Shown: positions 3,336-9,672 of the stretch, piece after piece
Numbering within the stretch: position 1 is the stretch's first letter
How the letters are laid out: each line of letters opens with the position of its first letter
Assembly (NCBI RefSeq): GCF_007120195.1
Contig: NZ_SKOG01000073.1
Location: forward strand, 1 to 59,886
Reading direction: 5' to 3'
Length of the DNA: 59,886 nt
Source of the DNA: Aquisalimonas sp.
GTDB taxonomy: Bacteria; Pseudomonadota; Gammaproteobacteria; Nitrococcales; Aquisalimonadaceae
Position numbers and translations under genes: made by a program
Notes under the pieces: model-generated
Seen by the model: only the letters and a program-made list of their open reading frames with translations
What the model was told of the DNA's origin: nothing
The model's database searches: none

Positions 3336-3387
3336 AGAGACGCAGACGTTGTACGCCGCTTACGGCGCACCGCATCAGGGGACCAGC

Positions 3388-3912
3388 ATGAGTGAGCGCA
3401 AGGATTCCAAGGACCAGCGGCAGCTGGAAGGCTACGAAACAATGCTGCAGCGCGTCACCGACGCCCTGGAACAAGCGGGTGACGAGGCGCAGCCGCGGCT
3501 GCGCCAGGCACTGGACTGGGCACGCCAGAAGGCGGTGGACCTGAACGAGCTGACAGCCGAGGAGGCCGAGCGCATCAGCGAATACCTGCGCCGCGATGTC
3601 GAGGATGCGGCCCGCTTCCTGGACCGCGACAGTGATGGTGAAGACCTGCGCGGCTGGTTCCGCATGGACATGCAGCTCATCGGCTCCTGGCTGTACGACC
3701 GCTTCAGTACCATTGCCGACCGCACCCGCCTGGAGTGGTTGGAACTCAACCGCCAGTGGGAGGAGGCCGGTCACTACCACACAGGCGAGATCACCGGCCC
3801 CGGCGAGCTGCGCTGCTCCGCCTGCAACAAGGCCATGCATTTTAAGAACGCGGGACACATTCCACCGTGCCCCGGATGCCGGGGGACACGCTTCGAGCGC
3901 GTCACGGATTGA
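3388..3912 (+). CDS. YbeL-like zinc-ribbon protein (DUF1451 type)
   Basis: A 174-residue protein with a long, charged, helical N-terminal region and a C-terminal zinc ribbon: CSACNK followed about 20 residues later by CPGCRG. This matches the YbeL/DUF1451 family, whose biochemical role is not established. In E. coli ybeL is also divergent from leuS, and that synteny supports the call. The frame is open from a TTG at 3349, but the ATG at 3388 has an AGGGGACC ribosome site and begins the conserved MSERKDS region. The shared upstream region contains the 39-bp palindrome. Confidence 0.85.
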   Translation: MSERKDSKDQRQLEGYETMLQRVTDALEQAGDEAQPRLRQALDWARQKAVDLNELTAEEAERISEYLRRDVEDAARFLDRDSDGEDLRGWFRMDMQLIGSWLYDRFSTIADRTRLEWLELNRQWEEAGHYHTGEITGPGELRCSACNKAMHFKNAGHIPPCPGCRGTRFERVTD

Positions 3913-4019: not shown

Positions 4020-5015
4020 ATGACGTTTCCGTTACCTGCCGCCATGACAACGGACAGTGGCCAACCCCGCCGTCTGGGCGTCGAACTGGAATTCGCCGGC
4101 CTGGACCTCGAGACGATTTCGACCCAGGTGGCCTCGCTGTACGGTGGACGGATCATTCGCGACAGCCGGTTTTCTCACCGCATCACCGACACGCGCTGGG
4201 GCACCTTCACCGCGGAGATCGATACGGCCCTGCTCAAAGACGGCAGTTACCTGCAACTCCTTGAGCGTCTCGGCTTCAACGTGCACGAGCCCTTGCATCG
4301 TGAGCGCGTGGACGATCTACTGGCGCGCCTGGCCGGCACGGTGGTCCCCCACGAAATTGTCACACCCCCCATCCCGTTCGTTGACATCCACGAACTCGAG
4401 GCCCTGCGCGCGGCCCTGCAGACCGGTGAAGCACTCGGCACGCGGGCATCGCTATTCTACGCCTTCGGACTGCACCTCAACCCCGAGGCGGCGTCGCTCC
4501 GCACCGAGCACCTCGTGGCCATAATGCGCGCGTTCTTGTTGCTCTACGACTGGCTGCAGGTGCGGGGGGAGATCAACTGGGCGCGGCGTATTTCCCCCTA
4601 CATCAACGAGTTCCCGCACGCCTACCGGCGCTTGCTGCTGGATCCCGGCTATGAGCCGGATCAGGAGCGGCTGATCGCCGACTACCTCACACATAATCCA
4701 ACCCGTAACCGGGCGCTGGACATGCTGCCGTTATTCTGTTTCCTGGCCGGCGACCAGGCCGTGCGTGACGTGCCCGACGCGGACCTGGTCAGCCCGCGGC
4801 CCGCCTTCCATTATCGCCTGCCCAACTGCCGGGTGGACGAGGCGGACTGGACCCTGGCATCGGAATGGAGCGGCTGGGTCAGCGTGGAGTGGCTTGCCGA
4901 ACGCCCAGCACTGATGCGGCACATGGTGACCGCCTACCTCAAGAGGCGGCCACCCAGCCTGTCGCGGGTGGATCAGGAATGGGCGCTGGAGACTGAAGCC
5001 TGGCTACGCGAATGA
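4020..5015 (+). CDS. Putative amidoligase of the glutamine synthetase/GCS-like superfamily
   Basis: A 331-residue protein with an N-terminal LGVELEFAGLD segment whose spaced glutamates (Glu22, Glu24) resemble the metal-binding strand of the COOH-NH2 ligase (glutamine synthetase/GCS) fold. A later TAEIDTALL and the pattern E-INWARRISPYINEFPHAYRRLL fit the putative amidoligase family described by comparative genomics. Such enzymes are predicted to form amide or isopeptide bonds using ATP; no substrate is known. The ATG at 4020 is chosen because AAGGAG lies 6 bases upstream; an earlier ATG at 3972 has no such site. The end overlaps the next gene by 4 bases, so the two are probably translationally coupled. 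Confidence 0.8.
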   Translation: MTFPLPAAMTTDSGQPRRLGVELEFAGLDLETISTQVASLYGGRIIRDSRFSHRITDTRWGTFTAEIDTALLKDGSYLQLLERLGFNVHEPLHRERVDDLLARLAGTVVPHEIVTPPIPFVDIHELEALRAALQTGEALGTRASLFYAFGLHLNPEAASLRTEHLVAIMRAFLLLYDWLQVRGEINWARRISPYINEFPHAYRRLLLDPGYEPDQERLIADYLTHNPTRNRALDMLPLFCFLAGDQAVRDVPDADLVSPRPAFHYRLPNCRVDEADWTLASEWSGWVSVEWLAERPALMRHMVTAYLKRRPPSLSRVDQEWALETEAWLRE

Positions 5016-5821
5016 AACCAGTGGTTGGCGTTACGGGACCGGATCGCGGGGGCACGGCCGCCTGGCTGTGCTGCCGGTTCGCGGTCTGGCTGGCAGGCGG
5101 ACGCGCGGTTCGCATCACACCTGGGCGTCCAATGACCGCAGACGCCCTGGACGCCCTGATCGTCGGCGGTGGCGCCGACGTGGATCCGGGTCTCTACGGC
5201 GAGGAACCGGCCACTCCATCCATGCGCGCGCTGCGGCGCAGCAGCCGCAACCTGCCCCGGTTTCTCGCCACATTGGCCCTGTTTCCGCTGCTGTGGCTGC
5301 TACGACGGCTACTCAGTACAAAAGCGGCGGTCGGCGGGGATACGGACCGGGACCTCCTGGAAACGCGTCTCTTAGAGGAGGCCCTGGATTGCGGCCTGCC
5401 GGTCCTTGGGATCTGCCGCGGCGCGCAACTGCTGAACGTGGTCTGCGGCGGCACGCTCTACCAGGACTTGCGCGCGTTCTACAGCGAGACACCCAATTTA
5501 TGGACCATCTGGCCCCAGAAGCCGGTGCGGCTTCGGCCCCATAGCCGGCTCGCCCAGGCTCTGGACCGCACCTACTGCCATGTCAACTCGCTGCATCGCC
5601 AGGCCATTCGGGACCCAGGACCGCGGCTCGAGCCCGTCGGTCATGAGGACTCGGGGGTCATCCAGGCCATCGAGGACTCCAACGCCCCGTGTGTCCTGGG
5701 TGTGCAATGGCATCCGGAATACCTGCCGCAAAAGCGCGAGCAACGCGCCCTCTTTCGACACCTCATCGCCTGCGCGGCCGAGCACGTCCACGCCAATAAT
5801 GATTATTCAACTCGAGTATGA
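5012..5821 (+). CDS. Class I glutamine amidotransferase-like (PuuD/peptidase C26-type) hydrolase with membrane-helix insertion
   Basis: A 269-residue PuuD-like protein. The nucleophile elbow is GICRGAQ with Cys135, and the catalytic His-Glu is in VQWHPEY (His234, Glu236). These enzymes hydrolyse gamma-glutamyl amides or supply ammonia from glutamine. Unlike PuuD, about 40 residues are inserted between LYGEEP and the DTDRDLLE helix (residues 69-108), and they contain a strongly hydrophobic run at 84-101 flanked by arginines. That suggests membrane attachment. It overlaps the amidoligase gene by ATGA, so the two products probably act on the same compound. Substrate unknown. Confidence 0.82.
   Translation: MKPVVGVTGPDRGGTAAWLCCRFAVWLAGGRAVRITPGRPMTADALDALIVGGGADVDPGLYGEEPATPSMRALRRSSRNLPRFLATLALFPLLWLLRRLLSTKAAVGGDTDRDLLETRLLEEALDCGLPVLGICRGAQLLNVVCGGTLYQDLRAFYSETPNLWTIWPQKPVRLRPHSRLAQALDRTYCHVNSLHRQAIRDPGPRLEPVGHEDSGVIQAIEDSNAPCVLGVQWHPEYLPQKREQRALFRHLIACAAEHVHANNDYSTRV

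Positions 5822-5982: not shown

Positions 5983-9672
<3,690 letters not shown>

Follow-up and report, generated by a model that had tools for sequence, protein, structure and literature searches.

The amidoligase and hydrolase genes that overlap in a 59,886 nt stretch of an Aquisalimonas sp. genome (contig NZ_SKOG01000073.1, analysed whole and called the window below) form a pair that is kept across relatives, and the hydrolase belongs to a branch marked by a conserved helical insertion. We propose, at a little short of an even chance, that the pair constitutes a two-enzyme cycle for a gamma-glutamyl (or closely related) amide at the cytoplasmic face of the membrane. The sequence-only reading that preceded this analysis had described an amidoligase-fold gene overlapping a PuuD-like gene by ATGA; the coordinates and the overlap were correct, and both proteins scored above their Pfam cut-offs. 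The locus comprises the following features.

3349-3912: DUF1451 zinc-ribbon gene, upstream of the pair
4020..5015, + strand: Amidoligase_2 (PF12224) gene, a glutamine-synthetase-fold carboxylate-amine ligase of 331 aa (Pfam, AF2 model)
5012..5015, + strand: ATGA start/stop overlap of the amidoligase and hydrolase genes, 4 bases (sequence)
5012..5821, + strand: Peptidase C26 / class-I glutamine-amidotransferase-like hydrolase gene with helix insertion, 269 aa (Pfam, AF2)
5207..5335, + strand: hydrolase insertion, approximately residues 66-108, with no counterpart in PuuD/lin1909 or insert-free relatives
5252..5314, + strand: predicted hydrolase helix, residues 81-101, with hydrophobic core 84-97 and P92 and R98 inside (DSSP on the AF2 model; column counts)
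5303..5305, + strand: hydrolase R98, kept in 60/60 insert-bearing rows
5414..5416, + strand: hydrolase nucleophile Cys135 (GICRGAQ), invariant in 95 alignment rows
5711..5719, + strand: hydrolase His234-Pro235-Glu236, part of the triad, invariant in 95 alignment rows
5983-9672: cobalamin-dependent methionine synthase (MetH) gene, 161 bases downstream of the pair

The first protein matched PF12224 with 203.8 bits, against a Pfam cut-off of 22, and is the single match to this family in a profile search of the whole genome. The only other Pfam match at E up to 1 was a sub-threshold YqjK; the same search gave no match to the glutamine-synthetase family, and none to the Mur-ligase family was found by Pfam search. 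The AF2 model (mean pLDDT 90.8) aligned with glutamine synthetases at Z up to 12.7 (rmsd 3.5, 216 residues aligned); Foldseek was weak by itself for this protein, with a best E of 3.9e-3. Both glutamates of the GxExE motif, E22 and E24, were invariant in an 87-row alignment (87 of 99 rows, with near-copies, contig ends and broken starts omitted), as were R17, R189, R229, R260 and R266. The amidoligase is a PF12224 member with the glutamine-synthetase catalytic fold, and ATP-dependent amide formation is its predicted activity. The frame is open upstream as far as 3972, and the alignments of relatives begin at the ATG at 4020.

The second protein scored 140.7 bits against Peptidase_C26 (cut-off 20.5) and 50.8 bits against GATase in Pfam. 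The structure closest to its AF2 model (mean pLDDT 91.1) was E. coli PuuD, at Z 29.2 and rmsd 2.7 over 226 aligned residues, with SpuA at Z 28.1 and lin1909 at Z 27.8. Chains of these three proteins spanned Z 26.6-29.2, and the best fold match outside them was CTP synthase at Z 22.2. The difference between the two Pfam scores and the gap in Z lead us to regard the protein as a C26 hydrolase rather than a synthetase-type glutaminase. The Pfam score and the PuuD match agree with the earlier PuuD-like assignment, and the active-site residues that had been read as intact (C135, H234 and E236) were all invariant in an alignment of 95 of 102 rows, from which near-copies, contig ends and broken starts were omitted. 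In NCBIfam, the protein fell below the cut-offs of the PuuD equivalog NF008471 (66.3 against 266 bits) and of the gamma-glutamyl-CDP-amidate hydrolase NF045546 (33.6 against 250 bits). The hydrolase is not PuuD, but it may work like PuuD.

Five matches to the C26 profile were found in the genome. The second full-length C26 protein (224.8 bits; L143, and L176 3431-4201 on the minus strand) is encoded elsewhere and is without the insertion, and the other three matches scored 28-40 bits and covered profile positions 96 onward. The second gene adjoins an ATP-grasp-like gene (L176 2245-4201; label read from the translation by eye).

Sequence alignments with PuuD and lin1909 skip hydrolase residues ~66-108. 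Across relatives, the corresponding region is 31-49 residues long in 61 rows and 5-7 residues long (14 in L076) in 35 rows. DSSP on the AF2 model gave a short helix at 71-77 and a long helix at 81-101, the latter of moderate confidence (pLDDT blocks of 79, 87, 82, then 60), and the core at 84-97 is followed by Arg-Arg. The ~40-residue hydrophobic-helix insertion foreign to PuuD, proposed from the sequence, was thus upheld by the skipped alignments, the modelled helix and the retention of R98 in relatives. R98 was present in 60/60 and P92 in 52/60 insert-bearing rows, a count over all 61 such rows except L079, which a length filter removed, and this degree of conservation argues that the insertion is more than chance. 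Before the insert, strand 48-51 runs into the glycine loop G52-G54, and after it R113, D114 and E117 are invariant. The insert helix would therefore emerge near the active-site loop, outside the PuuD-like core. The model predicts a separate helix here, and PuuD and lin1909 are without the segment; there was thus no sign that the hydrophobic stretch lies in the soluble core, a placement that would have counted against the sequence-only reading.

Insert-bearing and insert-free hydrolases were split by one branch with support 93/90 in a 96-row tree, in which bootstrap was not fully settled (0.987) and L087, L079, L023 and L078 formed long branches. The tree was built without the insert columns from 96 of 102 rows (L024, L025, L026, L029, L045 and L072 out), and the insert label required one change, against a shuffled mean of ~29. 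Insert-bearing rows came from Pseudomonadota, Bacteroidota, Balneolota, Thermodesulfobacteriota, Acidobacteriota and Verrucomicrobiota. On the amidoligase tree (90 rows), the label required six changes against a shuffled mean of 27, so that clean co-inheritance of the insert with the amidoligase is not supported. At the thresholds applied, no position in the amidoligase told partners with the insert from those without it.

The sequence-only reading would have been in difficulty had homologues never kept the pair; retention was found instead in 22/22 loci of related genomes and 26/29 survey loci. The amidoligase was present in 22 of 59 related genomes (the window's own included), each time with the hydrolase directly downstream. 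In profile surveys, it was found in 15/274 genomes of the window's class and 15/299 of its phylum, and the hydrolase adjoined it in all but three of the distinct loci (L125, L141 and L142, with no C26 gene beside the amidoligase within the flanks examined). The class and phylum draws have genomes in common with each other and also with the earlier sets: L110 corresponds to the window, and L111 and L122 come from the same genomes as L018 and L023. Four of the 26 pairs in these amidoligase-queried surveys were insert-bearing. A contig scan with the insert-bearing hydrolase as query, which over-samples insert-bearing rows and of which the best 80 loci were kept, found the amidoligase next door in 77 (the misses being L071, L072 and L079). 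Insert-free relatives retain the same pair. Over 99 pairs, the two genes overlapped by up to 49 bases or lay up to 69 bases apart, and amidoligase and hydrolase were separate frames in the loci read.

On plasmids of Dinoroseobacter shibae and Qingshengfaniella, an 'amidoligase family protein' adjoins a 'gamma-glutamyl-gamma-aminobutyrate hydrolase family protein'; a Xanthobacter plasmid record, whose gene table is incomplete, lists a C26 gene but no amidoligase. With P0001, tblastn gave no match at E 1e-3 among 50,697 phage records. Several single loci showed irregularities. L072 lies at a contig end. L142 contains one in-frame TAG, and the amidoligase match L112 in G274, an insert-bearing locus, contains one in-frame TGA, which may mean that the gene is broken, that the sequence has an error or that the frame ends there. 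In L079 (5989-7388), the insertion of the C26 protein is shorter and no amidoligase was detected; a DedA/TVP38-like membrane gene (label read by eye) overlaps the C26 gene downstream.

In 2008, Iyer, Burroughs and Aravind used gene neighbourhoods to predict a pair of PF12224 amidoligase and glutamine amidotransferase-like thiol peptidase (PMC2588565). The ligase family, the partner type and the conserved proteobacterial neighbourhood described there are the same as here, so the pair is not undescribed, as had been suggested; the accompanying statement, that such pairs were predicted by genome comparison and have no assigned substrate, agrees with that source. The portions of the paper used here mention neither a helix insertion in the peptidase nor a YqaA/DedA partner, and among the matches listed in our literature search no paper joined an amidoligase to YqaA/COG1238 or to a hydrolase membrane helix. 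The link to YqaA and the branch of hydrolases with the insert may be new, a claim of novelty that the literature supports weakly. The same paper describes Pup ligases of Plesiocystis and Rhodopirellula with a four-helix membrane insertion, proposed as a tether to the cytoplasmic face; in that description the insertion sits in the ligase and comprises four membrane segments, whereas here it sits in the hydrolase.

We examined the neighbouring genes for a fixed third partner, calling frames crudely as the longest non-overlapping ones. Downstream, 36 of 42 same-strand first frames were scanned, and 13 of the 36 proteins matched VTT_dom, a typical one having ~142 residues; that of L061 was 41% identical to E. 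coli YqaA, a COG1238-type DedA protein. By tblastn, a YqaA-like gene lay within 185 bases downstream of the hydrolase in 19/96 rows, namely 12/35 insert-free and 7/61 insert-bearing ones. All seven have an insert that lacks the Pro and come from Halieaceae or a close neighbour. The gene was absent next door in the remaining 54 of 61 insert-bearing rows, among them L063, which ends at a contig edge; in L082, a YqaA-like gene 2.2 kb away was left out of the count. Six of the 29 survey loci had the gene, all of them insert-free and one with a partial match. A recurrent third partner therefore exists in many relatives, but no YqaA-like (VTT) gene lies beside the pair in the window; five VTT matches occur elsewhere in its genome.

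Other neighbours were more sporadic. A GlnE-type protein lay directly downstream of the pair in 3/36 scanned loci (L027 and L051 confirmed singly), and upstream, where 65 of 73 first frames were scanned, a gamma-glutamyltranspeptidase was the first gene, on the opposite strand, in 3/65 (L031, L033 and L046). Among the loci of 20 insert-bearing relatives (~0.7-1.5 kb flank), DUF1451 was found upstream only in L006, and MetH downstream in seven (L003-L006 from the window's genus, and L018, L019 and L021 from its order). The DUF1451/MetH neighbourhood looks like local synteny; for MetH, a genuine connection with the pair may be the alternative. On D. shibae pDSHI02 (L127 1114-4351), the pair is immediately preceded by homocysteine S-methyltransferase-family and dihydroneopterin aldolase genes. 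A folate link, drawn from MetH in the window and from FolB and homocysteine methyltransferase in Dinoroseobacter, was set aside because no folate family recurs among the first-neighbour Pfam families listed (25/35 and 25/104).

The sequence-only reading had offered a membrane-tethered pair as one possibility. Over 19 residues, the Kyte-Doolittle mean of the window's insert peaks at 1.6, right at the threshold for a membrane span. Homologous inserts exceeded this value in 26/60 cases and in 0/9 from Bacteroidota, whose inserts are mostly aromatic and basic and moderately hydrophobic. PuuD aligns across residues 1-265 of the hydrolase model, on both sides of the insert. An ordinary single-pass transmembrane anchor is unlikely, since a crossing at this point would split one alpha/beta domain and since the Bacteroidota inserts are not span-like. 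The insert, with its proline and invariant Arg, is better explained as a helix that is monotopic, lies on the surface or re-enters the membrane. Given the Bacteroidota inserts and the borderline value in the window, the helix could also be a protein-docking helix.

The computation showed the families and folds, the active sites as intact, the retention of the pair, the conservation of the insert and the linkage to YqaA; from these we infer the bond, the order of steps and the membrane contact of the proposed cycle. The amidoligase would couple an amine to a glutamate-like carboxylate at the expense of ATP, and the C26 hydrolase would remove the amide by way of an acyl-enzyme at Cys135, together with His234/Glu236. 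The 21-residue hydrolase helix, with its conserved Pro and invariant Arg, would lie in or dip into the inner leaflet, monotopic rather than spanning. The helix follows the active-site glycine loop in the sequence, a position from which it could give the hydrolase access to an amide that is hydrophobic or bound to the membrane. In helix-less relatives, the downstream YqaA/COG1238-type DedA protein, present in about one third, would supply the same membrane link in another form. The membrane theme appears twice, as hydrolase helix or as membrane-protein gene, and this speaks for a substrate located within or at the membrane.

C26 hydrolases and gamma-glutamyl cyclotransferases are unrelated, yet both release gamma-glutamyl groups. 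Firmicute neighbourhoods place the same ligase family with an Aig2 gamma-glutamyl cyclotransferase (PMC2588565), and phage LUZ24 is annotated with an amidoligase (gp18), an L-glutamine-D-fructose-6-phosphate aminotransferase (gp19), a RimK-like ligase (gp21) and a gamma-glutamyl cyclotransferase (gp22). In these firmicute and LUZ24-like phage systems, the ligase family is the same by annotation and the cleaving partner is not C26; gamma-glutamyl release, as the property shared by the two partner types, favours a make-and-cleave cycle over ammonia feeding. The gamma-glutamyltranspeptidase gene upstream of three scanned loci points the same way. A gamma-glutamyl amide, as judged from the partner families, is the better supported of the two bonds suggested by the sequence-only reading. 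Nothing beyond the membrane theme speaks for the other, a peptidoglycan-like substrate.

GatD feeds ammonia to MurT, a Mur-ligase relative, and the locus could encode a glutamine-dependent amidation complex of this kind, in which the C26-like subunit would hydrolyse glutamine to supply ammonia and the amidoligase would amidate a carboxylate. GatD-MurT is a known peptidoglycan amidation pair (PMC3267633, PMC5871853) and resembles the present one in combining a class-I GATase-fold subunit with an ATP-dependent ligase, there for a cell-envelope substrate; it differs in its ligase, since the partner here has no Mur-ligase match. The gene overlap suggests a fixed complex, and the hydrolase has the class-I glutaminase fold with a full triad. 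Class-II-type glutamine amidotransferases adjoin the amidoligases of LUZ24 (gp19) and of the related phage UFV-P2, which lists PF12224 together with such a protein (ORF25; PMC3890496), and this arrangement fits ammonia feeding at least there. However, the closest folds of our hydrolase are hydrolases by a clear margin, the firmicute cyclotransferase partner is ill-suited as an ammonia feeder (PMC2588565), and 3/29 survey amidoligases were without a hydrolase within the flanks examined. We consider an amidation complex unlikely, yet the explanation retains some weight.

It is also rather unlikely that the pair is a soluble PuuA/PuuD-like system handling a small amine, with a helix that docks the hydrolase on the amidoligase or dimerises it and never touches the membrane. 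The PuuA/PuuD and SpuA gamma-glutamyl-polyamine pathway likewise joins a glutamine-synthetase-fold ligase to a C26 hydrolase, and our hydrolase is close to PuuD and SpuA in sequence and in fold (Z 28-29). Docking would also suit the invariant Arg, which is probably typical of specific contact, and the Bacteroidota insert, and the occasional downstream GlnE-type genes point to nitrogen metabolism. The two systems differ in that the ligase here belongs to PF12224 without a glutamine-synthetase Pfam match and in that PuuD has no insertion. Against docking on the amidoligase, insert-free relatives keep the pair, so that pairing does not require the helix, and no amidoligase position tracks the insert state of its partner at the thresholds used; the YqaA-like membrane partner in about a third of insert-free rows fits poorly with a soluble system. 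A ligase and thiol peptidase acting on a glutathione-like peptide or secondary metabolite, as in the 2008 proposal that amidoligases are likely involved in peptide formation during the synthesis of glutathione or related peptides (PMC2588565), appears very improbable. The E. coli yqaA gene adjoins gshA, the glutamate-cysteine ligase gene, on the same strand (L109 3884-5941), an adjacency that again puts a DedA gene next to one for a gamma-glutamyl ligase, would suit such a pathway and may be coincidental; no peptide-synthesis family recurs among the listed first-neighbour families (25/35 and 25/104).

Returning to the membrane-face cycle, a more specific form of it can be considered. The function of COG1238 proteins is little known, and they may move uncharged or positively charged lipids (PMC10127716). 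This suggested movement agrees with a hydrolase that would act at the membrane surface next to an amide ligase, and it leads us to speculate, as an improbable but concrete case, that the amidoligase caps a lipid amine with a gamma-glutamyl group, that the DedA-type YqaA carries the capped lipid to the other side of the inner membrane or releases it from there, and that the hydrolase, docked by its helix, takes the cap off again. If true, this lipid-capping cycle would provide a substrate class for PF12224, for helix-bearing C26 enzymes and for COG1238 DedA proteins. The PF12224 branch, the insert-bearing C26 enzymes and the COG1238 DedA proteins would become linked, and one metabolite or lipid comparison could inform all three.
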